DNA of 52,618 bases from a virus, in IMG/VR virus record IMGVR_UViG_3300026519_000002, positions 1-52,618 of that record; one strand, written 5' to 3'. Positions 10,574 to 52,618 of the stretch are shown here, piece after piece (position 1 is the stretch's first letter; every line of letters begins with the position of its first letter). Made by a program: the position numbers and the translations under genes. The notes under the pieces were generated by a model. That model ran no database searches. It was given only the letters and a program-made list of their open reading frames with translations, and was not told the origin of the DNA.

Positions 10574-10920
10574 TCTACGCGACCGAGAACGACCACCGTT
10601 ACCCGTCCCGGGTGTCCCACGAGGCGACCACCGAGCCACCGCCGTCGAGCGGTCGGGCCAAGCTGACCTTCATCCGCGACGAGCTCATGCTGGCCGCCCA
10701 TGCGGCCGGCATGCCGGGCAACGACGCGGCGCGCGCAGTCGCGAACGTCCTGCACGCGCTCATCCTGACCGTGCACGACGCGTGCGAGGCGCGCGAGTAC
10801 ATCGTGGGATCAAGCTATGCGTACGAGTTCGAGCACGGGCAGGCCATGCTCGATGCGCTCGAGGCGGCGTGCCGGCTGACCGCCGCTGAGCGGGTTCGTC
10901 GGCAAGGGGGTGGGTCGTGA
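10570..10920 (+). CDS. Hypothetical early protein
   Basis: The 116-residue protein starts at the ATG forming an ATGA overlap with the previous gene. A longer in-frame ORF from 10273 would overlap that gene completely and is rejected. The N-terminus is polar. A helical core follows (KLTFIRDELMLAAHAAGMPG, then VANVLHALILTVHDACEAREY). The stop overlaps the GTG start of the ParB-like gene. Function is unknown. Confidence 0.62.
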   Translation: MIYATENDHRYPSRVSHEATTEPPPSSGRAKLTFIRDELMLAAHAAGMPGNDAARAVANVLHALILTVHDACEAREYIVGSSYAYEFEHGQAMLDALEAACRLTAAERVRRQGGGS

Positions 10921-12449
10921 CGACCGCCAGCCTTCCGATCGCCCACCTCGCCCCCTGCGGCTTCAACCTGCGGGATGAGGTGGGCGACGTCGGCGAGCTC
11001 ACGGCCACCATCCGTGAGCACGGCGTGCTTCAGGCGCTGGTGGTGCGTCCTGCCGGCGACGTCTACGAGGTCATCGTGGGTCACCGCCGCCTTGCCGCGG
11101 CGACGGAGGCAGGACTCGAGACCGTGCCCTGTCAGGTGCGCGAGCTCACCGACGAGCAGGCGATCCAGCTCATGCTCGTCGAGAACCTGCAGCGGGCCGA
11201 CATTGCCCCGCTCGACGAGGCGGACGGCTACTGGCGACTGCACCACGACGACAAGCTGAGCGTTGAGCAGATCGCCGGCAAGGTCGGCAAGAGCGCAAGC
11301 TACGTCCGCAAGCGGCTCAAGCTCAACGACCTGAGCGCCAAGGGTAAGAAGGCTCTGGCCGCCGGCGAGCTGCCCGTGGGCGCGGCGCTGCTGCTCGCGC
11401 GGATCCCGACGGCGAAGCTGCAGGACGAAGCGCTCGGCAGCATGCGCTCGACGGTCGAGGACCCGGTGCCGCTTCTTGAGGCGCGTCAGGCGACCCAGCG
11501 CTACCAGCTGCCGCTCGCCGGCGCGCCCTTCGACATCACCGCCAAGCTCCTCGCCAGGGCCGGCGCGTGCACGACCTGCGAGCACCGCACCGGCAACCAG
11601 AGCGAGCTGTTCGACGACGCCCCCAGCGCAGACCTGTGCACCAACCCGCCTTGCTACGACAAGAAGCGCGCCGCCGCGTGGAAGGCCCGAGCCGCCGAGC
11701 ACAAGGCTGCGGGCGGCAAGGTCCTGAGCAAGGACGAGGCGGCGAAGCTGTTCCTGTATGGGGGCTACCTCAACAACCGCGACTACGTCGAGCTCGATCG
11801 CCCACCCGGCTACAGCGATCTGCCCATCAACAGCAAAAAGAAGTGGAAGACTCTGCTGGGCAAGGACGCCAAGAGTGAGGTCGTCTTGGCCCAGGACAAG
11901 TCGGGCAACGTCCGCGAACTGATCCCCCGCAAGCGAGCCATCGCGTTGGCGAAGGCCAAGCACCCCGAGCTCGCCACCAAGCCCAAGAAGGCGAAGGCCG
12001 ACCCGGCCGAGGCGAAGCGCCGGCGTGAGGCCGCCATTCACCGCGCCGCGAGCCAGGCAGCCATCGCCGATCTCGTCGCAGCGGTGCAGGGCGACGGGGG
12101 CGAGATCGGCATCTCGACGTGGCGTCTGATTGCCGAGGCCTTCGCGGACGGCTCGTGGAGCGACACCATGCGCGACGTCCTCAAGCGCCGCGACATCAAG
12201 CCGGGGAGCGACGTTCGGGAGACCTTTCAGGTGCTCATCGACGCCGGGGGCGAGGACGACGCGCCGCTCGACACCGGCGAGCTGAGCGCGCTGGTCATCG
12301 AGCTCATCGTCACGCGCAATCTCTACAACACGTGGGGGGACAACCCCGCAAAGCGCCTCGAGCAGGCCTGCGATCTCTACGGTGTGGATCTCGCGCAGCA
12401 TCGCAAGGCCGCCGCGAAACGCGAGACCAAGAGCAAGAAGGGGGCGTGA
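10917..12449 (+). CDS. ParB-like DNA-binding protein
   Basis: The 510-residue protein carries the ParB/Spo0J N-terminal fold, with LRDEVGDVGELTATIREHGV, LVVRPAGDVYEVIVGHRRL (the GHRR nucleotide box) and LMLVENLQRADIAPL. A helix-turn-helix follows (LSVEQIAGKVGKSASYVRKRL). The middle has a Cys cluster (CTTCEHRTG, then LCTNPPCYDKK). The last 150 residues include a lysine-rich linker and a helical domain. No ParA is encoded, so plasmid-style partitioning is unlikely to be its only job. Phages often carry such proteins next to recombination genes. The start is GTG, overlapping the previous stop (GTGA). Confidence 0.85.
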   Translation: MTTASLPIAHLAPCGFNLRDEVGDVGELTATIREHGVLQALVVRPAGDVYEVIVGHRRLAAATEAGLETVPCQVRELTDEQAIQLMLVENLQRADIAPLDEADGYWRLHHDDKLSVEQIAGKVGKSASYVRKRLKLNDLSAKGKKALAAGELPVGAALLLARIPTAKLQDEALGSMRSTVEDPVPLLEARQATQRYQLPLAGAPFDITAKLLARAGACTTCEHRTGNQSELFDDAPSADLCTNPPCYDKKRAAAWKARAAEHKAAGGKVLSKDEAAKLFLYGGYLNNRDYVELDRPPGYSDLPINSKKKWKTLLGKDAKSEVVLAQDKSGNVRELIPRKRAIALAKAKHPELATKPKKAKADPAEAKRRREAAIHRAASQAAIADLVAAVQGDGGEIGISTWRLIAEAFADGSWSDTMRDVLKRRDIKPGSDVRETFQVLIDAGGEDDAPLDTGELSALVIELIVTRNLYNTWGDNPAKRLEQACDLYGVDLAQHRKAAAKRETKSKKGA

Positions 12450-14717: not shown

Positions 14718-15197
14718 ATGGCAAACGGATTGAACGAAGTCTACTTGATGGGCAACCTTGGCGATGACCCCGAGCTGCGGTTCACCCAAGGCGGCACCGG
14801 GGTGCTCAACCTCCGGCTCGCGACCAACGAACGCATCAAGCGCGACGGCGAGTGGGAAGACCACACGGAGTGGCACAACGTGGTGGTGTGGGGGAAGCGA
14901 GGTGAGAGCCTAGGCATGATCCTCGTCAAGGGCAGCAGGGTGCTCATCAAGGGCAACCTCCGGACCTCAAGCTACGAGGGCAAGGATGGCGTGAAGCGGT
15001 ACAAGACCGAGATCCACGCCCGAGAGGTGGTCCTCACAGGCGACGGCGGTGGACGGAGCGATCGGGGGCGCGACGACGACCGCCGCGATCGCCGCCGGGA
15101 CCGCGACAGCGACCGTGGGCGCCGTCGTGACGATCGGGGGCGGGATCGGGATCGAGACCGGGGACGCGGGCGTGACCGCGACGAGGACTTCCGGTGA
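14718..15197 (+). CDS. ssb: Single-stranded DNA-binding protein with RD-repeat tail
   Basis: The 159-residue protein begins with a standard OB fold, with NEVYLMGNLGDDPELRFTQG, EWEDHTEWHNVVVWGKRGE and GSRVLIKGNLRTSSY. The last 55 residues are almost only Arg, Asp and Gly, ending DEDFR instead of the bacterial DDDIPF tip. The mixed-charge tail may replace the usual partner-recruiting acidic tip. It lies between the exonuclease and an SMC-like ATPase. Confidence 0.93.
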   Translation: MANGLNEVYLMGNLGDDPELRFTQGGTGVLNLRLATNERIKRDGEWEDHTEWHNVVVWGKRGESLGMILVKGSRVLIKGNLRTSSYEGKDGVKRYKTEIHAREVVLTGDGGGRSDRGRDDDRRDRRRDRDSDRGRRRDDRGRDRDRDRGRGRDRDEDFR

Positions 15198-16525
15198 GCA
15201 CCACCATCGTCCGCCTCGAGGCGCAGAACGTGATGCGCCTGCGCGCCGTGCGCATCGACGCCGATGGCAAGCCCGTCATCGTCGTCGGCGGCAAGAACGG
15301 CAACGGCAAGTCGAGCGTGCTGCGCTCGATCGAGATGGCGCTCGGGGGCAAACGGGCCATGCCCCCGAAGCCAATCCGCGACGGCGAGCGACGCGCAGAG
15401 GTGACCGTCCAGCTGAGCAACGGCATGATCGTTACCCGGACGATCGACGCTGCCGGCGGCACCAAGCTCGTCGTCACCGACGCCGAAGGGGGCAAGGTCC
15501 GTTCGCCCCAGGCGGTGCTCGACAAGATGTTCCGCACGCTGGCGATCGATCCGCTGGCCATGTCTCGTATGCGGCCCGCCGAGCAAGCAGCCATTCTGCG
15601 GGAGATCGCCGGCGTCGACACCACCGAGCTCGACGGCCGGCGCCAAGCTACCTTCGACCAGCGTACCGACGTCAACCGCGAAGTGAAGCGGCTCAAGGCT
15701 CAGCTCGACGCCGCGCCGCACCACCCCGACGCCCCGGCCGAGGAGGTGAGCATGGCCGAGCTCGCGTCCGAGCTCGAGCTGGCCAGCGAGCAAAATCGCG
15801 ATGTGCGGTCGAAGCAAGACAACCTCGAGGATGCCCGACGCGAGTTGGACGAGGCCGAGGACGAGGTGGCACGTCTCGAAACGGAGCTGCAGCGGGCCCG
15901 GAAGCGTCGGACTGTGGCCGCTGACGATCTGGCACGTGCTCAGCAAGCCGCCGCCGCGGCCGAGCTCGTCGATATCACCCCAATCCGCGAGCGCATGCGG
16001 ACGGCCGAGGCCACCAACGCCAAGGTGCGTGACAACGCCGCGCGCCAGAAGCTCCTCGAGGAGCATCGCGAAGCGCAGCGCCGTGCCGACGCGCTCTCCG
16101 ACGAGCTCGATGTCATCGACGAGGCGCGCGCCGCCATGTTGGCCGCGGCCAAGCTCCCCATCCAGGGGCTCGGCTTCGACGGTGAGGGCGTGACGCTCGA
16201 CGGCGTGCCGCTCGAGCAGGCTAGCCAGGCGCAGCAGCTCCGGCTCTGGACCGCAGTCGGGTTCCGACAGAACCCCGAGCTCAAAGTGCTGCTCGTCCGG
16301 TCGGGCTCGGACCTCGACGAGGACAGCTTGCGGCTGCTGGGCGAGCTCGCCGCGGCAGAAGGGGGCGAGGTCTGGCTCGAGCGCGTGAGCACCGGGCAGG
16401 AGTGCTCCGTGGTCATTGAGGACGGGATGGTGCGGGCGGTCGCGGAGGCTGACACCGACCCGCCGCCGTCGACGGACCGGGCGCCGGCCCTAGCAGCCGT
16501 CGAGGAAAAGCTCGACTTCGTGTGA
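15194..16525 (+). CDS. RecF/SbcC-like AAA ATPase
   Basis: This 443-residue SMC-type ATPase has an N-terminal VRLEAQNVMRLRAVRI strand and Walker A GGKNGNGKSS (about 33-42). A long helical coiled coil with many Glu/Arg runs covers about 145-310. A C-terminal head has LEQASQAQQLRL in the signature-motif position and LLVRSGSDLDEDSLRLL as D-loop. It would remodel DNA in recombination. Classical SbcC is much longer; phage versions this short are known. GTG start, GTGA overlap with ssb. Confidence 0.82.
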   Translation: MSTTIVRLEAQNVMRLRAVRIDADGKPVIVVGGKNGNGKSSVLRSIEMALGGKRAMPPKPIRDGERRAEVTVQLSNGMIVTRTIDAAGGTKLVVTDAEGGKVRSPQAVLDKMFRTLAIDPLAMSRMRPAEQAAILREIAGVDTTELDGRRQATFDQRTDVNREVKRLKAQLDAAPHHPDAPAEEVSMAELASELELASEQNRDVRSKQDNLEDARRELDEAEDEVARLETELQRARKRRTVAADDLARAQQAAAAAELVDITPIRERMRTAEATNAKVRDNAARQKLLEEHREAQRRADALSDELDVIDEARAAMLAAAKLPIQGLGFDGEGVTLDGVPLEQASQAQQLRLWTAVGFRQNPELKVLLVRSGSDLDEDSLRLLGELAAAEGGEVWLERVSTGQECSVVIEDGMVRAVAEADTDPPPSTDRAPALAAVEEKLDFV

Positions 16526-17563: not shown

Positions 17564-18966
<1,403 letters not shown>

Positions 18967-18970
<4 letters not shown>

Positions 18971-19227: not shown

Positions 19228-20472
19228 CTAAGCCGCCATCAGGTACGCCAGCGGCGCCTCGGGCCCCACGAGGGTCCGGTCCTGCCACCGGATGGCGTCG
19301 CGCTCGTTGCCACCGATGCAGCGGACCACCTGCCGGTCGTCGAATCGGGTCGTGGCCGTCGTGATGTGGCCCTGTCCGGCCTGCCCCCCGAGCTCGACGG
19401 GGAGCGGACTCTGGCCGTTGCGGCCGTAGATCACCGCGTCGCCCGGCATGGGCCTGTAGCCGTCGCTGTGGAGCCGCAGCAACCCGCGGCCGTGGCTGTC
19501 CGCGCAGAGCTCCCGGACGCTCACACGCAGGCCGTGGGGCGGCGTGTCGCCGACGAGCAGCACCCGCAGCAGCAAGTACGACCGGAACGCGGCGCACCAG
19601 GCGTCCTCGTCTCGAGGTAGCGGCAGCGGCAGCCCGCCGATCCACCACGGCTGACCGTCATCGGTGAGCCCCCGGAATTCGCCGCCACGCCGGCAGTGGC
19701 GGCTGTACTCGAGGATGCGCGGGTTGTGACGAGCGCCTGGGATCTCTTTGACGTTGTGCCCGAATTCGAACCCCGCCATCTCCACCAGGCGTTGGCCGAT
19801 CGTCAGCGACTGCCACCACCCGACGTCCACCCAGGGCTCGACGGGGCCGCTTGGCGGCGCGGAGTCCGTCCGACCGCCCACGAGGAACGGGACGAGGTGA
19901 TCGCGGAGCACCTGCGGGCCGTGCTCGGTCAGCGCGCGGCCGTGCTGTTGCTTCATCGTCTCGCCCGGCTTGGGATCGCGATGGATGATGACCCCCTCGG
20001 CCTGCATCTGCCGGAGCGTTTCTGCCGTCTTGGTCGTGCTCGGATACGTGTAGGGGTCGACGTCGGTGTGCGTGACGATCAGGTGTCCTCCGTCGTCGGC
20101 GTACTTCTTCACGTGGCTCAGCTGCGCCGCCGAGCCATGCAGCCCGTCGAGGAACACGCAGGCGTCGATGGCGCTCCGATCGAGGGGGTGCGTCAGCAAC
20201 CCGTCGCGGGCGTACCAGCAGCCTGCCGAGTACCCCACGAAGGCGAGCTTGCTCACGCTGACCCCGGGTGCGTACTTGTCGAGCGTGGCGGGCAGCAGAC
20301 GACCATCGCCACGACGAAGGTTCGCGGCTTCGGTCTTGAACACGGACGAGAACCCGGCGATGGGGATGAGCTTGAGCACGAAGTCCCCGAGGGGACGCAG
20401 CGCCTCTTCGTACTTGGCGAGCGTGGCGCGGTCGGGCGCACCGGGCGTGGCGAACAGAACGAGCGTGGTCAT
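19228..20472 (-). CDS. Endolysin: alpha/beta-hydrolase domain fused to NlpC/P60-like (TIGR02594-type) peptidase
   Basis: This is a 414-residue two-domain lysin. Residues 1-200 look like an alpha/beta hydrolase, with VGYSAG carrying nucleophile S82, then VFLDGLHG and HLIVTHTD for the acid/base region. Residues 220-414 match TIGR02594-type cell-wall peptidases, with EIPGARHNPRILEY, catalytic C293 in DAWCAAF, GDAVIYGR and H369 in GQGHITTAT. The peptidase would cut peptidoglycan cross-bridges; the hydrolase may act on an envelope ester. There is no signal peptide, so release depends on the holin. Its ATG overlaps the histidine-kinase stop (ATGA). Confidence 0.78.
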   Translation of the reverse strand: MTTLVLFATPGAPDRATLAKYEEALRPLGDFVLKLIPIAGFSSVFKTEAANLRRGDGRLLPATLDKYAPGVSVSKLAFVGYSAGCWYARDGLLTHPLDRSAIDACVFLDGLHGSAAQLSHVKKYADDGGHLIVTHTDVDPYTYPSTTKTAETLRQMQAEGVIIHRDPKPGETMKQQHGRALTEHGPQVLRDHLVPFLVGGRTDSAPPSGPVEPWVDVGWWQSLTIGQRLVEMAGFEFGHNVKEIPGARHNPRILEYSRHCRRGGEFRGLTDDGQPWWIGGLPLPLPRDEDAWCAAFRSYLLLRVLLVGDTPPHGLRVSVRELCADSHGRGLLRLHSDGYRPMPGDAVIYGRNGQSPLPVELGGQAGQGHITTATTRFDDRQVVRCIGGNERDAIRWQDRTLVGPEAPLAYLMAA

Positions 20473-21833
20473 GAGTCCTCCAAGGGCAGCTCGAATGTGA
20501 AGGCGGCGCCGCGTCCGGGGCCGTCGCTCTCGGCCCAGATCCGACCGCCGAGCTCGTCGGTGACCTGGCGGCAGAAGCTCAGCCCGAGCCCGTGCCCAGG
20601 CGTGCTGTCATGCGCCCGGAAACCCGCGTCGAAGAGGCGCTCGGACTGCTCGGGTTCGAATCCACGGCCATGGTCGCGCACCGTCACACGGACGCTGCCG
20701 ACCGACTCCGAGGCGGTCACGGTGATCCGCGGAGCCGTGCCGCCGTACTTGGCCGCGTTCGCGACGAGGTTGAGCAGGATGGTCCGTGCCGCCATCGGCA
20801 TCCGCACGTCGGCACCGGTCACGTGGACACTCGCGCCGTGCTTCTCGATGTGGTTGCGTTTGCTTACGAGCACGTCATCCATCAGCGCCGCGAGCGTCAC
20901 GAGCTCGCGCTTGCCGGTGAGGGATCCGTAGATCCGCTCGATCGCCACGACCTGGCGGTGGATGTGCTCGGCCGCCTCGGCGACGTCCGCAGCCGTCACC
21001 CCCGACGTCGGGTTGGAGGCCATGCGCGCCAGGTGCACGACGTGGTTGAGCGGCGAGCGAAGGTCGTGGCAAGTCTCACCCACGAACAGCGCCATTCGGC
21101 TGTTCACCGCCTCACGATGCTCGCGCTCCGCCTTCAGCTTGGACTCGGCCTGAATGACCCGACGCGTCCTCGCGTTGGTGAGCGCCATCGCCGCCGCGAA
21201 CGCCAACGAGAAGCCCACGATCACGGGCGACCCAGTGGCTACCGCCAGCGCCAGCCCGGTCGCCCCAAGACCGCCGGCCATTGCGAGCGATGCCGCTCGC
21301 TCCCCAAGGTTCGCACTCACCACCATTCCCCCTCCCACGAGGACGAAGGCCCCCGACGTGTGCACGGCCATGTCCGTCCACGGCCCCCACGAGTAGCTAG
21401 CGCTCGTGCCGCTCACGTACCCGAGGAGCGTCGTCCCTCCCGCCACCGCCACGAGCACCCCGGCCACAGCACGAACTCTCCGACCGGCGAGAAGGCCCGC
21501 GCTCAGAACGAACGAGCCGGCCGTGGCCGGAGACATCAGTCCGGGCCGGTAGGTCGCGGTGGTTGTCCAGGGCTCGAACAGCAGCGTAGCGGTCCCGGTG
21601 TCCACGCTTGCGTAGTCAAGGAGCGCCAAGATCCCGAGCGCCGCTGCCCCCAAGACCTCAACGCCCCGTCCCCGCCACAGCGCCGAGCCCGCAAGGCAAA
21701 ACCCGAGCGCCGTGTTGGGCTGCATCGGGGCCGCACCTGGGATCACCTGGACGAGCGGCGGCACCCGCAGCGCCCAGCCCACGAGCACCAGGGCGCCCAG
21801 CGCGAACACGACAGCCGCGGCGACACGGATCAC
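20469..21833 (-). CDS. Membrane sensor histidine kinase in the lysis operon
   Basis: This is a complete 454-residue kinase. Residues 1-220 form about eight hydrophobic segments with a PMQPNTALGFCLAG motif, seen in integral-membrane sensor regions of bacterial kinases. A helical linker leads to the H box ETCHDLRSPLNH (H256), N box LLNLVANAAKYGG (N355/N359), G1 RDHGRGF (387-391) and G2 GHGLGLSFCRQV (413-417). All catalytic motifs are intact. The GTG start overlaps the receiver-protein stop (GTGA), and the stop overlaps the endolysin ATG. The longer ORF to 22499 is shadow. It should autophosphorylate and pass phosphate to the neighbouring receiver. The signal is unknown. Confidence 0.88.
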   Translation of the reverse strand: MIRVAAAVVFALGALVLVGWALRVPPLVQVIPGAAPMQPNTALGFCLAGSALWRGRGVEVLGAAALGILALLDYASVDTGTATLLFEPWTTTATYRPGLMSPATAGSFVLSAGLLAGRRVRAVAGVLVAVAGGTTLLGYVSGTSASYSWGPWTDMAVHTSGAFVLVGGGMVVSANLGERAASLAMAGGLGATGLALAVATGSPVIVGFSLAFAAAMALTNARTRRVIQAESKLKAEREHREAVNSRMALFVGETCHDLRSPLNHVVHLARMASNPTSGVTAADVAEAAEHIHRQVVAIERIYGSLTGKRELVTLAALMDDVLVSKRNHIEKHGASVHVTGADVRMPMAARTILLNLVANAAKYGGTAPRITVTASESVGSVRVTVRDHGRGFEPEQSERLFDAGFRAHDSTPGHGLGLSFCRQVTDELGGRIWAESDGPGRGAAFTFELPLEDS

Positions 21834-22567
21834 AGGAACACCCTCAACACCTCGATGATGACGGAAACGATGGCACCGAGACTGACACCGCCGATGTAGA
21901 CCTTCCCTTTTTCCTTCAGAGGCAGGTCTGAGAACGTTGAGGCCAGTCGTACGATGTCGTTCCGATTCGTCGTCGTCACCGACTCTGTCTGGGTCTGCCG
22001 CTGCTCGATGCGGTCCAGGCGGTCCAGGATGACCGCGTTGTCTCGACGGCTGTTGGCCAGCGCGCGCATCATCGAGCCCTCGCCCGGCTGCTCGTCGGCC
22101 AGCGTGTCGAGCTGGTCCGCCTCGTCGCGAGCCGCGTCCGAGATCACCTTCGTGTCTCGCGTGGCCGACCGGCGCAGCGCCGCAAACTCCAGCGCCCGGC
22201 GGATGTGCGCGGGCTCGGTCCCGGGCTTCTTTACGAGGAAGTCGTCCGCGCCCCCGTCGCGCATGATCCCCAACCGCACGACGTCGTCGGCGCAGCCGGT
22301 GTAGACGACGATCGGCGTCCCCTCGGCAGCCGACTTTACCGCGTCGAACGTGTGTCGCCCGCGGCTGTCGCCGAGATCGAGGTCCTGCAGGACCACGTCG
22401 AAGGGGCGACCCTGGCGCTTGGCCTGGTCGAGCGCCGCTAGCGTGGACGCCAGCGAGAACGCCTCGACCACGTCGTGGTCGCCACGCAGATCGGCGCACG
22501 CGATCCGACGGTCGAAGTCCTGGTCGTCGCTGACCAGGATCCGCAGCTTGCCCGGGGCTCGGTACAT
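21830..22567 (-). CDS. Response-regulator receiver domain fused to a holin-like coiled-coil/membrane tail
   Basis: This is a 245-residue protein. Residues 8-120 are a canonical receiver: acidic pair D14/D15, phosphoacceptor D62 (VVLQDLDL), T90 (VVYTG) and K113/K114 (LVKKP). There is no DNA-binding output domain. Instead a charged helical region (about 130-205, with LDRLDRIEQRQTQTES) ends in one membrane segment (about 222-245, GGVSLGAIVSVIIEVL). That C-terminal plan resembles XhlA-type holin accessory proteins. It is followed by its kinase (GTGA overlap) and the endolysin. A phosphorylation-controlled lysis effector is the attractive hypothesis. A simple membrane-tethered phosphate sink is the alternative. 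Confidence 0.82.
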   Translation of the reverse strand: MYRAPGKLRILVSDDQDFDRRIACADLRGDHDVVEAFSLASTLAALDQAKRQGRPFDVVLQDLDLGDSRGRHTFDAVKSAAEGTPIVVYTGCADDVVRLGIMRDGGADDFLVKKPGTEPAHIRRALEFAALRRSATRDTKVISDAARDEADQLDTLADEQPGEGSMMRALANSRRDNAVILDRLDRIEQRQTQTESVTTTNRNDIVRLASTFSDLPLKEKGKVYIGGVSLGAIVSVIIEVLRVFL

Positions 22568-22582: not shown

Positions 22583-22849
22583 TCAGGCCGAACCATCAGC
22601 CTCGGGGAACTTGTCGTCGAGCGCTCCTTCCCAGCCTTTCTCAGCCCGCACCTGGGCGAGCAGCTCAGGCGACCGACGAAGGCGCGCGATCGTCCCCTGC
22701 GCGTCGGCACCGTCGCGGATCAGGTCGGCAGCCAAGCCCAGCGCCTCGCCGACGATGGGCCCCACCCCCTTGGCGCCAGGAATGGCCTCGAGCAGCGTGC
22801 CCACCGGGGACGCCATGTGCTCGAGCACGTCGGCGAGCGTCACGGACAT
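22583..22849 (-). CDS. Small hypothetical protein of the lysis cassette
   Basis: The 88-residue protein starts MSVTLADVLEHM, overlapping the lipoprotein gene by 10 bp. It has a Gly/Ala-rich mildly hydrophobic middle (GTLLEAIPGAKGVGPIVGEA) and a charged helical end. No convincing transmembrane segment is seen. Proteins of this size and composition commonly sit next to phage holins, without known function. It ends 15 bp before the receiver gene. Confidence 0.6.
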   Translation of the reverse strand: MSVTLADVLEHMASPVGTLLEAIPGAKGVGPIVGEALGLAADLIRDGADAQGTIARLRRSPELLAQVRAEKGWEGALDDKFPEADGSA

Positions 22850-23265
22850 GGCACCACCTCCGGGAGCGCGGGGAGCTTTTTGGAAAGTCCGAGCTCGACG
22901 GCGACGTCCTCGAGCTCGCACCAGGCGGCGACGAACGCCGCGGCGCTCGCCGGGTCGCTCACCCCCTGCTCGAGCGCCGTCGCCCAGGCGTTATGGGCGG
23001 CGCCCAACGCGTCGACAGCGGCCCAAACCGGGCGCCACCGGGTGCGGTGAGCCTCGAGCAGCGCGACCGCCTCCTGACGGCTCTTGGCGCGCTCGATGAG
23101 CAGCTCCCCCTGTCGGGCGTAGGTCTCCGCGAGCTGGACGAGCACGGGGTTGGTGGCCACGGCGATGGTGTTGGCCACCTGCGCCTGCGCCCGCGCCTGC
23201 ACCTGCGTGGACGACGGGGGGCACCCCAGCGCCACGAGCGCCAGCACGATCACCAGCCACCTCAC
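22840..23265 (-). CDS. Lipoprotein of the lysis cassette (spanin-like position)
   Basis: The 141-residue protein uses a GTG at 23265 that overlaps the previous stop (GTGA). The N-terminus MRWLVIVLALVALGC is a signal peptide with a lipobox-like ALGC. The mature part is helical and Gln/Ala-rich (QVQARAQAQVANTIAVATN), later with a second Cys near the end. An envelope lipoprotein next to the holin suggests an outer-membrane spanin-type (Rz1-like) role. It is longer than typical Rz1, and no separate Rz partner is obvious. The ORF up to 23379 is a shadow. Confidence 0.62.
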   Translation of the reverse strand: MRWLVIVLALVALGCPPSSTQVQARAQAQVANTIAVATNPVLVQLAETYARQGELLIERAKSRQEAVALLEAHRTRWRPVWAAVDALGAAHNAWATALEQGVSDPASAAAFVAAWCELEDVAVELGLSKKLPALPEVVPCP

Positions 23266-23405
23266 AGCGCCGCCCTCACGGCGCAGTCCTTGGGCTCGGG
23301 TAGGTGGCCGTAGACGAAGTACTCGAGCACGGCCAGCGTGCTCGGGTGCAGCGACTCTGCCAGCTCGGCGGGCGGCCAAACGACGCTTGCTTCGGCGTAG
23401 GTCAC
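23262..23405 (-). CDS. 47-residue protein coupled to holin and lipoprotein
   Basis: This is a short GTG-started ORF, MTYAEASVVWPPAELAESLH to CAVRAAL, whose start overlaps the holin stop (GTGA). Its stop overlaps the lipoprotein start (GTGA). The double overlap is the main evidence. It has an aromatic, proline-containing middle (STLAVLEYFVYGHLPEP) and no clear membrane segment. A regulator or accessory of lysis is plausible but unproven. Confidence 0.5.
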   Translation of the reverse strand: MTYAEASVVWPPAELAESLHPSTLAVLEYFVYGHLPEPKDCAVRAAL

Positions 23406-23596
23406 TTCGCCGGGGCCTTCGGGGGAAGCGGCGTGACCGCCTGCCGCGTGACGATCGCCAGGACGAACGCGGTCACCGCGAGAATGGCGCCCATCTGCTC
23501 CTCGGTGATGTGCAGGCCGAAGGACAGAACGAGGGCGAGGACAGCCTGGACGAGGCCGAGCAGGACCGCCGGCTCACGCTTGATGAATTCGAGCAT
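23402..23596 (-). CDS. Holin (two-transmembrane type)
   Basis: The 64-residue protein has two hydrophobic segments (about 9-29 and 37-55) joined by a short polar turn (LHITEEQ) and a basic/proline tail (PPKAPAK). This is the usual plan of small class II holins that permeabilise the inner membrane and set lysis timing. It opens the leftward lysis cassette, which continues to the endolysin through coupled genes. The start ATG is followed by a charged LEFIKRE stretch. Confidence 0.75.
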   Translation of the reverse strand: MLEFIKREPAVLLGLVQAVLALVLSFGLHITEEQMGAILAVTAFVLAIVTRQAVTPLPPKAPAK

Positions 23597-24123: not shown

Positions 24124-26772
24124 GTGGCCTACGCCGACTTCAACGGGATCACAGGTCTCGTCAGGGCTTGCCTGACGAGCGACGGGGGACCCTCGCCACG
24201 TGCTTCCGCCGACGGCACGGCCTGCACGGGGTGGCCCGATTCGACAGGCACCAGCGACGCGACGCTGGCCGGTACCGCCCCCGAGATCAACACCAACCCC
24301 ACCGGGGGGCTGCAGGGGCCGTGTGCGCTCCACGTCGCGGAGAACGGCTTCGGCTTCGCTGGCGTCGTCAATGGACTCACCAACTGGACGATCGCAACCT
24401 GCCTGCGTGCCGACTCGCTGAGCAGCTTCCGAAACATCTTCTCAAGCCAAGGCGGCTCGGGTGAGGGGTCGCTCTACGCCAATGCCGGGGCGCTGACCTA
24501 CGAGGAAGGCTCGACAGAAACGCTCGGGTTCACGCTTTCGACCGGCACCGTCTACACCATCATCTTCACCGCCGACGCGAGCAACTACCGCTGCTACGTC
24601 GACGGCACGCTGGTTTGGACCTCCACCATGACGCCAGCGGATCAGCCGGCGGCGCTCGAAACAGCGGCCTATGGGGGTTCGGGCGCGGTGTGGTCAGGCG
24701 ACTGGTGGGCGATCGCCATCTACGCCACCACCGTCTCGGGTGGGGACATCGCAACGCTCCACGCCGCCCTGCTCGAGGAGGCCAACGGCGCGGCGGCCGA
24801 GCAGGACATCGACCTGACCACGATCGCGTCGGGACACACCGTCCACGACCTGGCCTCGGTCACCAGCGGGTCGGAGCAGACCATCAACCTCACCACCATC
24901 GCCAGCGGTCACACCCTGCCGGCGTTGGCCAGCGTCGCGGCTCAGCCCGAGCAGGACATCGACCTAGCCGCGATCCCGTCGGGGCACGTGGTGCGAGACC
25001 TGGCTTCTGTCACCCTCGTCGGCGCGCTGCACGACGCCTTCGAAGGGTCGGGGACACTGGACGGCTACACAACCGTGAACGCGTCGGACCTGCCCAACGT
25101 CACCGAGGCCAATGGCCGTTACCTCGCCGAGCTCGCCGACAACACCGCTGACGTTACGACCTGGTTCAACAGCGACGCCGGACGCGGCGACTTCAAGGCC
25201 ACCGAGTTCCCTTTCGAGATCATCGTCCGCAACATCGGGATCGGCGTCTCGGCCGCCGACACCCAGGGGACCCCCACGCTGTTGGGGAACCCCTACAACT
25301 TCTGCGGCATGCAGGTGAACGCGGACTTGGGCAGCCCCGAGCAGGACTACCGGCACTTCGTGGTGGGGTACCGAGGGGCTACCGGGTTCGGGGGCTCGGA
25401 ACGCACCATCGAGGCCAAGACGAACGCCAGTGGCTCATCGAGTGTCAACGACGTCGGCACCAACGCGATCACGGGAACGCGCGCCGACTTCCGGATCGTC
25501 GGCAGCGCCGGCAAGGCCATCACCTTCCAATGGCAGGAGCCCAACCAGCTCGGCCCTGGCGGCCAGCCTGACCCAGCACAGGACAGCTGGAGCTCGGCCC
25601 ACGCCTTCCCCGGGAGCGAGCCCGCCTGGCCCGACACCGTCTACGTGGGGCTCGTCACCTACGCCTTCGGGACCGACGGGGTCCCCTTCGTCGGGACCGC
25701 CGACGCCATCGAGGACATCCTCAGCGCGCAGAACGTCGACCTCGGTGCCGTCGCCAGCGGTCACCAGGTGCACGATCTCGAGAGCGTCACCATCAAGGGC
25801 AGCGACCAAGACATCGACCTCACTACCATCGCCTCGGGCCACGTCGTGCACGATCTCGCCAGCGTCGTCAGCGGCCCCGCCAACGACGTCGACCTGGGTG
25901 CGCTCGGACCGACCGTCACCGTGCACGCTCTCACGAGCGTCGGCTCCGGGCCGGCGCTCGAGGTAGACCTGGGCGCGCTGCCCTCGGGGACCGTGGTGCA
26001 CGACCTCGCCAGCGTGGACGTGGTGTCGGGGCAGACCATCTCGCTCACCACCATCGTGAGCGGCCACCAGATTCACGAACTGGCGAGCGTGGCGGCCCAG
26101 GCTGCGCAGGACGTCGACCTCACCGCCATCGCCAGCGGCCGGACCGTGCATGACCTGGCGAGCCTCACAATGGACCCCGATCTCGACGTCGACCTCACCG
26201 CGATTCCGAGCGGGCGCGTCGTTCACGATCTCGACAGCGTCGCGACGGTCCAGAGCATCACGCTGCAGGGCCGCGCCTCAACGCTGACCGTTCACGACCT
26301 CGCCTCGCTGACCGTCCAGGCCGAGCTCGACGTGGACCTAGCCACGATCGCGTCAGGGCACGTGGTGCACGACCTCGCCAGCGTGGTCATTTTGCAGCTC
26401 GCCGCGTCGACCACCATCACGGCTTACAGCCGCCCTGCTACGCTGATCGACATCGAGGAGGATCCCGTGCCCCACACCGCAGGCGACCGCGTTGAGACCA
26501 CCATCCGCTTCCGCGTAGGAGGCGTGCTGACCGCCCCGGACTCGTGGTCGATTCACGTGAAACCTCGACGGGGCGCCGCCTTTGAGGTGCCATCCGGGGA
26601 CGCCTCCATCTCCGAGGTGCAACCGGGCGAGTACGTGTGGTCGCAGCAGACGAGCCACGACGACGCCACCCACGTCGGGCGCTGGGACTACACCGTCGAC
26701 AGCGACGGCAGCGTGGCCCCTGGGGCGCGCAATGGGTTCTTCGAAGTGCGGCGGGCGGCGGTGGTGGCCTAA
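24124..26772 (+). CDS. Repeat-rich tail adhesin with LamG-like domain
   Basis: The 882-residue protein starts at GTG. Residues about 60-215 resemble a concanavalin/LamG-type jelly roll (NWTIATCLRADSLSSF, YVDGTLVWTS, GGSGAVWSGDWWAIAIY). Twelve copies of a roughly 25-residue unit with consensus DIDLTTIASGHVVHDLASV follow: three at about 226-300 and nine at about 536-758. An insert at about 300-535 looks like a second carbohydrate-binding-type beta domain. The C-terminus (about 775-882) is an Ig-like beta domain. It probably binds host surface glycans. It is read opposite to the tail operon and converges with the next gene by 4 bp. Confidence 0.75.
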   Translation: MAYADFNGITGLVRACLTSDGGPSPRASADGTACTGWPDSTGTSDATLAGTAPEINTNPTGGLQGPCALHVAENGFGFAGVVNGLTNWTIATCLRADSLSSFRNIFSSQGGSGEGSLYANAGALTYEEGSTETLGFTLSTGTVYTIIFTADASNYRCYVDGTLVWTSTMTPADQPAALETAAYGGSGAVWSGDWWAIAIYATTVSGGDIATLHAALLEEANGAAAEQDIDLTTIASGHTVHDLASVTSGSEQTINLTTIASGHTLPALASVAAQPEQDIDLAAIPSGHVVRDLASVTLVGALHDAFEGSGTLDGYTTVNASDLPNVTEANGRYLAELADNTADVTTWFNSDAGRGDFKATEFPFEIIVRNIGIGVSAADTQGTPTLLGNPYNFCGMQVNADLGSPEQDYRHFVVGYRGATGFGGSERTIEAKTNASGSSSVNDVGTNAITGTRADFRIVGSAGKAITFQWQEPNQLGPGGQPDPAQDSWSSAHAFPGSEPAWPDTVYVGLVTYAFGTDGVPFVGTADAIEDILSAQNVDLGAVASGHQVHDLESVTIKGSDQDIDLTTIASGHVVHDLASVVSGPANDVDLGALGPTVTVHALTSVGSGPALEVDLGALPSGTVVHDLASVDVVSGQTISLTTIVSGHQIHELASVAAQAAQDVDLTAIASGRTVHDLASLTMDPDLDVDLTAIPSGRVVHDLDSVATVQSITLQGRASTLTVHDLASLTVQAELDVDLATIASGHVVHDLASVVILQLAASTTITAYSRPATLIDIEEDPVPHTAGDRVETTIRFRVGGVLTAPDSWSIHVKPRRGAAFEVPSGDASISEVQPGEYVWSQQTSHDDATHVGRWDYTVDSDGSVAPGARNGFFEVRRAAVVA
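24799..26397 (+). repeat. Twelve ~75-bp coding repeats of the adhesin
   Basis: Units run at 24799-25020 (three) and 25729-26397 (nine), each encoding about 25 residues with a fixed VDLxxIxSGxxVHDLxSV pattern. Individual units differ at many codons, so they have diverged. The conserved DNA core around CACGATCTCGCCAGCGT could still allow copy-number change by recombination. Confidence 0.8.
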
Positions 26773-51742: not shown

Positions 51743-52545
51743 GCCGCGGCCATCTTGTCGAGCGCCGCCTCGATGAGCGCTCCGCTGCCATTGCGCACCT
51801 CGAGCCCGCACGCCGCCCGAAGCACCGTCAGCCGGCTCACCCCTGCCTGTTTGGCCACCTTGGCGTCGCCATGCGCCTTGAGCAGCGCGGCGAGCGCCTT
51901 CCGCTGTCCTTCGTTCAAGACCACGTTGGGAGAGGTGGCACGCAGCGGCGTCGCAGACCGCGCATGGTCACTTGTAACAACGCTCTGACGATTCCCCATC
52001 GCGGAATCGTTGAGGGATTCGAGGTGGAGCACGAAAAAGTTGGGCTGCTTGCCCTGGTGCCAGTCGCGGATCACCTCCACGTGCCCCGCGACCTCGAGCT
52101 GCTCGAGGGCGTAGCGCACCTGATCGCGGCTCAGGCTCGTGGCCAGCTGCAGCTGCGCGTGGCTCACCGGCTCCCCACGAGCACGCAGCAGTGCCTGGGC
52201 GACGAGCAGCTGCGTCTCGGTGAGCGCCGCGGCGCCGACCATCCCCAGCTGCTGGGCGAGCTGCCCCTGCTCGGTGAGGTGCCACTGCGCGTCGTGGCAC
52301 CACAGCGCCTCGCCCTGCGCCTGCATCCACGCCACGCAGTAGCGGGGGTCGACCGGCAGGTGCTCCTCGTCGAGGGCCCAACCGAGGATCTCCCGCATCG
52401 TCGCCGGCGCCTCGAGCAACCGCGTGCGCACCGGCTGGCTCCACGCCTCGAGGCGCGGATCGTCGCCAGCCGGCTCGAGCTCGAGCCACCGATGCGGCGG
52501 CCGCATTCGCTGCCGCGGGCCTTGGCGTCGGCGACGGCGGGTCAT
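51739..52545 (-). CDS. Winged-helix DNA-binding protein of the packaging operon
   Basis: The 268-residue protein has a central winged-helix region, QLLVAQALLRARGEPVSHAQ then LATSLSRDQVRYALEQLEVA and GHVEVIRDWHQGKQ. A second helix-turn-helix-like segment lies near the C-terminus (GQRKALAALLKAHGDAKVAK, then QAGVSRLTVLRAACG). It may regulate late genes or bind DNA for packaging. The first 18 codons lie in the terminal repeat and reappear at 1-54. It is preceded in the circle by the 56-residue ORF. Confidence 0.68.
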   Translation of the reverse strand: MTRRRRRQGPRQRMRPPHRWLELEPAGDDPRLEAWSQPVRTRLLEAPATMREILGWALDEEHLPVDPRYCVAWMQAQGEALWCHDAQWHLTEQGQLAQQLGMVGAAALTETQLLVAQALLRARGEPVSHAQLQLATSLSRDQVRYALEQLEVAGHVEVIRDWHQGKQPNFFVLHLESLNDSAMGNRQSVVTSDHARSATPLRATSPNVVLNEGQRKALAALLKAHGDAKVAKQAGVSRLTVLRAACGLEVRNGSGALIEAALDKMAAA

Positions 52546-52618
52546 CGCTCACGCCCCTCTTCGCCGGCTGGGACAAGTGCGGGATCCCACGGTGTCACGA
52601 CGCTCGGCGTAGGTCAGC
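52492..52618. repeat. 127-bp terminal direct repeat, right copy
   Basis: Exact copy of 1-127. One copy should be removed to circularise the genome; the packaging operon then runs uninterrupted from terS (757) through the junction to the terminase large subunit. Confidence 0.95.

Follow-up and report, generated by a model that had tools for sequence, protein, structure and literature searches.

A two-component pair with a receiver-membrane tail protein in the lysis genes of a temperate, probably myxobacterial phage suggests that lysis is timed by phosphorylation

Organization of the phage genome and its lysis operon

A temperate phage, whose host is probably a polyangial myxobacterium, carries between its holin and its predicted cell-wall-cutting enzyme a sensor histidine kinase and a partner protein in which a response-regulator receiver domain continues into a long helical stretch and one C-terminal hydrophobic segment. 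A second prophage, with tail genes showing no similarity to the first phage, carries the homologous pair within its own lysis genes, which suggests that these phages decide by phosphorylation when to burst the cell, although function is inferred only. The stretch analysed here (the window; 52,618 nucleotides, IMG/VR record IMGVR_UViG_3300026519_000002) is a whole contig with a 127-bp exact direct repeat at its ends (1-127 and 52492-52618), as assemblers leave on a circular molecule, and is most likely a complete phage genome of about 52.5 kb. It displays terminase, portal, major head protein, tape measure and baseplate genes, as well as a tyrosine integrase (17564-18970, plus strand; PF00589, E = 2.4e-16; phrog_1) that converges on the lysis operon. 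The 3' end of the integrase ORF contains a 45-bp 3' half of an initiator tRNA-Met gene (18737-18781, minus strand), a usual form of attP. The MAG in which the contig was binned (G000) was rejected as the likely host, since its initiator tRNA differs from the attP core at 3 of 45 bases, while nine contigs, mostly of Polyangium and other Deltaproteobacteria/Myxococcota, match exactly. Exact matches occur in Polyangium (three genomes), Byssovorax, other Polyangiaceae or Myxococcales, two other Deltaproteobacteria and one archaeal MAG. A polyangial host is thus inferred, and the contig was probably binned with the wrong organism.

The lysis operon extends leftward from 23596 to 19228 and comprises seven genes in one run, all on the minus strand. 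The first gene (23402-23596) encodes a 64-residue holin with two hydrophobic segments, identified by a match to phrog_9752 (E = 7e-12), while Phage_holin_9 was sub-threshold. It is followed by a 47-residue ORF of unknown function (23262-23405), whose GTG start lies inside the holin stop codon, a lipoprotein with an LVALGC lipobox (22840-23265), an 88-residue ORF of unknown function (22583-22849), the receiver protein (21830-22567), the kinase (20469-21833) and the lysin (19228-20472). Junctions are 4-bp overlaps at holin/47-residue ORF (GTGA), 47-residue ORF/lipoprotein (GTGA), receiver/kinase (GTGA, 21830-21833) and kinase/lysin (ATGA, 20469-20472), whereas the lipoprotein and 88-residue ORF overlap by 10 bp and a 15-bp gap containing GGAGG precedes the receiver gene. 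All seven genes have phage-like codon-position GC. No sigma-70-like promoter was found in the region, a weak negative because such hosts may use other promoters. The gene order, strand and 4-bp overlaps proposed in an earlier sequence-only reading of this DNA are therefore confirmed, and its observation of a two-component system embedded in a phage lysis cassette holds.

The lysin comprises two parts, of which the sequence-only reading had not mentioned the first. The N-terminal part contains a GYSAG motif (Ser-82) and is alpha/beta-hydrolase-like by motif only, as no family model matched. The C-terminal part is NlpC/P60-CHAP-like, giving a weak hit to TIGR02594 (E = 0.0015), and is 42% identical to a phage protein (P0013) from a Polyangia genome, G559, that hits CHAP (E = 3e-5) and the endolysin family phrog_9589 (E = 1.3e-5). 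The Cys, His and Asn residues of the presumed active site (Cys-293, His-369 and Asn-389) are conserved. The operon thus contains both a holin and, through this homologue, a peptidoglycan hydrolase.

Structure of the receiver protein and of the kinase

The receiver domain extends from residues 10 to 115 of the 245-residue protein (PF00072, E = 5.4e-9, above cut-off) and displays the acidic pair Asp-14 and Asp-15, the phospho-acceptor Asp-62, Thr-90 and Lys-113. No Pfam or NCBIfam output domain was identified beyond the receiver, and the protein thus lacks the C-terminal DNA-binding domain of DNA-binding response regulators. After residue 115 no family matches. Structure prediction of the receiver protein had been proposed beforehand as a check, and a single-sequence AlphaFold2 model, in which the receiver fold itself is poorly modelled, displays helices at residues 118-159, 161-213 and 230-244; no model based on an alignment was built. 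The only strong hydrophobic segment is found at residues 223-241, within the last 23 residues, and follows a basic stretch, which predicts a tail anchor with the receiver in the cytoplasm (an inference; membrane insertion was not shown). The sequence-only reading had likened this region to XhlA-type holin accessory proteins. A helical stretch followed by one predicted C-terminal membrane segment in a lysis cassette is indeed present, but the C-terminus matches no XhlA or holin family and a relation to XhlA by sequence is not supported.

The kinase (454 residues) contains a HATPase_c core (E = 2.5e-25) and His-256 in the motif CHDLRSPL, although the Pfam HisKA score is below cut-off. Its N-terminus is polytopic, and this membrane sensor region (residues 1-220) resembles, at 30–34% identity, the sensor regions of bacterial signalling proteins, with recurring NTALxF/PGxMxPxTA/YxWGxxTxMxxHT motifs shared with many of them but without a Pfam model. 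No close relative of the kinase exists in 290 Polyangia genomes, where the best hits are 35–37% identical over the core only, so it is not a recent capture from the sampled hosts. Searches of INPHARED, IMG/VR and GTDB contigs for close relatives of the receiver, kinase or lysin returned none that were useful. A kinase/receiver pair is rare in phages: 56 of 50,697 INPHARED records hit the kinase of the window, most of these hits being short, unannotated or resembling bacterial DNA, and none hit the receiver. The related baseplate phages L012 and L013 have no HATPase.

A second lysis cassette with the receiver-membrane tail protein

A search of 290 Polyangia genomes with the lysin alone revealed, among the phage-borne hits, a prophage in genome G544, flanked by myxobacterial-type genes on one side and tail genes on the other. 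Its cassette reads, in one run, kinase, receiver-helix-membrane segment protein (P0008), holin, lipoprotein, small ORF and lysin. The receiver domains of the two phages are 37% identical over 108 residues (E = 2e-16) and the kinases 33% identical over 225 residues (E = 4e-20), while the lysins match with E = 9e-10. The lipoproteins are also homologous (2 of 3000 shuffles reach the score) and the holins share a weak C-terminal resemblance (60 of 3000), whereas the small ORF of G544 has no detectable similarity to the 88-residue ORF in the corresponding place. No other gene of that contig matches the window at 1e-4. The kinase and receiver are in the opposite order and at another place in the cassette, so the pair has moved as a unit yet stayed with the lysis genes. 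A chance meeting of such a rare pair with a homologous lysin cassette is therefore unlikely, although no exact probability can be given because the loci were not a random sample.

In both known copies of the fusion the single hydrophobic segment lies at the very C-terminus and is preceded by basic residues. The tails share position, length and an FxDLPxxE motif, seen by eye, but their own sequence conservation is weak: 44 of 2000 shuffles reach the alignment score of the helical/membrane halves, and 152 of 2000 when composition is kept by segment. The G544 receiver has Ala at the Thr-90 position and its kinase has no membrane sensor, so the signal is not shared between the two phages, and its nature is unknown. 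A receiver tree joins the two phage proteins with one host regulator (support 93/86) on long branches and neither shows nor rejects a common phage ancestor (AU p = 0.63); this nearest host receiver (L109) has a soluble C-terminus and lies beside a host kinase. Polyangium receivers that aligned over residues 5-209 turned out to be NarL-like. In a search of 318 Polyangia genomes with both receivers, scoring at most eight candidates per genome, only G544 gave a full-length match, and of 74 distinct receiver ORFs in the loci examined only the two phage-borne ones end in a single terminal membrane segment.

Two further phages provide comparators. In a G559 phage contig, a plain coiled-coil protein with one terminal membrane segment precedes a holin/lipoprotein-like ORF and the lysin, and thus stands where G544 has the receiver fusion. 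In the cyanophage My-WqHQDG, which infects Microcoleus, an operon annotated mostly as hypothetical (OR578706.1, 88856-91946; locus L169, 5032-8122, plus strand) comprises kinase, receiver, receiver and coiled-coil/membrane protein as separate, overlapping genes. Split and fused forms of the same set suggest a functional link between receiver and membrane protein, but they rest on architecture and not on sequence similarity. Homologues lying away from lysis genes had been named in advance as an observation that would speak against a role in lysis. For the fused form the outcome is supportive, as its only other copy lies in a lysis cassette, while the unfused cyanophage version lies about 57 kb from the annotated peptidoglycan enzymes of that phage, which are found at 25-31 kb, and this counts partly against.

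Proposed mechanism and alternative explanations

The sequence-only reading had proposed that signal-dependent phosphorylation changes the membrane assembly of the receiver protein and so times or vetoes lysis; this interpretation is partly supported, in its anatomy and in the link of a receiver/membrane tail fusion to lysis. In the model considered most likely, held with about even confidence, a lysis protein of the coiled-coil/membrane segment kind has gained a receiver domain, so that a kinase encoded beside it can set its assembly. The kinase, made from the same late transcript, would read a state of the membrane or cell and phosphorylate Asp-62 of the receiver in the cytoplasm. This would change the pairing of receiver domains and of the helical stretch behind them, and so how the C-terminal segment clusters in the membrane or acts on the holin, to hold back or release lysis by the holin and the alpha/beta-hydrolase/CHAP lysin. 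An antiholin-like brake is favoured, although neither hole formation nor lysis timing was assayed. The analysis itself establishes the genes, their domains, the operon and the recurrence of the pair in a second cassette, whereas late expression, membrane insertion with the receiver inside, phosphotransfer (not measured here), action on the holin and the direction of the effect are inferred. Supporting the model, the operon is translationally coupled from holin to lysin, with no gap for a separate promoter between receiver, kinase and lysin. Against it, there are no functional data and only two cassettes with the fusion were found.

Of the alternatives, the least improbable, though still unlikely, is that the pair is cargo (a moron) that rewires signalling of the myxobacterial host, for example as a phosphate sink at the membrane, and merely rides in the late operon, as other cargo genes sit next to phage lysis genes. 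Myxobacteria are rich in two-component proteins, the phage receivers and kinases resemble host-type ones, and the pair has moved between two places in the cassette. Against this stand the 4-bp coupling to the lysin, the same association in two phages with otherwise unrelated genes, and an output that is a membrane tail in the slot where a related cassette has a plain coiled-coil/membrane protein. A more doubtful possibility is superinfection exclusion or abortive infection, in which the kinase would sense a second phage or membrane damage and the receiver protein would depolarise the membrane. A signal-gated membrane protein fits the logic of membrane effectors and the phage is temperate, but PADLOC gave no match for the receiver, small ORF or lipoprotein and only a trivial ATPase-domain hit for the kinase, and placement between holin and lysin suggests late expression rather than expression in the lysogen. 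That the receiver is only a membrane-anchored regulator of its own kinase or of the lysin's activity, and not of the holin, is improbable, because although the kinase gene is directly coupled to the lysin gene in the window, in G544 the receiver is adjacent to the holin and the kinase is far from the lysin.

Relation to known systems

In Gram-positive bacteria the LytST histidine kinase/response regulator pair governs the holin-like LrgAB membrane proteins, and in S. aureus and B. anthracis lrgAB expression responds to membrane potential through LytST (PMC3507848). LytST is bacterial and acts by activating lrgAB expression, while here the receiver has no DNA-binding domain and itself carries a membrane segment inside a phage cassette. 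XhlA-type proteins of PBSX and relatives comprise a coiled coil followed by one C-terminal membrane segment in a lysis cassette, but here a receiver domain is fused at the N-terminus. In holin/antiholin timing (lambda S105/S107, T4 T/RI), a membrane protein made from the lysis genes sets the time of hole formation, and no phosphorylation or kinase takes part. No phage kinase/regulator pair tied to lysis was found in the papers searched, which included no preprints and few subscription papers. Lysis timing is usually explained by holin accumulation and antiholins. The most far-reaching possibility, which is tentative and rated somewhat below even, is that a phage-encoded phosphorelay acts after translation on a tail-anchored lysis protein, so that a sensor kinase, and not the accumulation of holin alone, sets or vetoes the moment of lysis. 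If this mechanism holds, it would be a new kind of lysis control. A kinase inside the lysis operon would let a phage tie lysis to a sensed state of the cell, and would make the question of whether phages decide when to lyse directly testable with point mutants (H256A, D62A). A response regulator whose output is a membrane tail is also unusual for two-component signalling.

Additional features of the lysins and of the phage genome

The N-terminal alpha/beta-hydrolase-like domain of the lysin has stand-alone chromosomal relatives in many Polyangia genomes (locus L086, 8173-8811, minus strand), some secreted or with LysM. In another phage lysin (locus L085, 2720-4354, minus strand) the CHAP-like segments appear in permuted order, the DEVAWCASAASW segment coming after the GH and GGNE segments, at the C-terminus. 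Elsewhere in the window, an 882-residue protein (24124-26772, plus strand), encoded on the strand opposite to the neighbouring tail genes, displays a Laminin_G/ConA-like domain followed by repeats of about 30 residues (ASGHxVHDLASV). The rightward early region contains a ParB-like protein (10917-12449, plus strand) and a RecF/SMC-like ATPase (15194-16525, plus strand).
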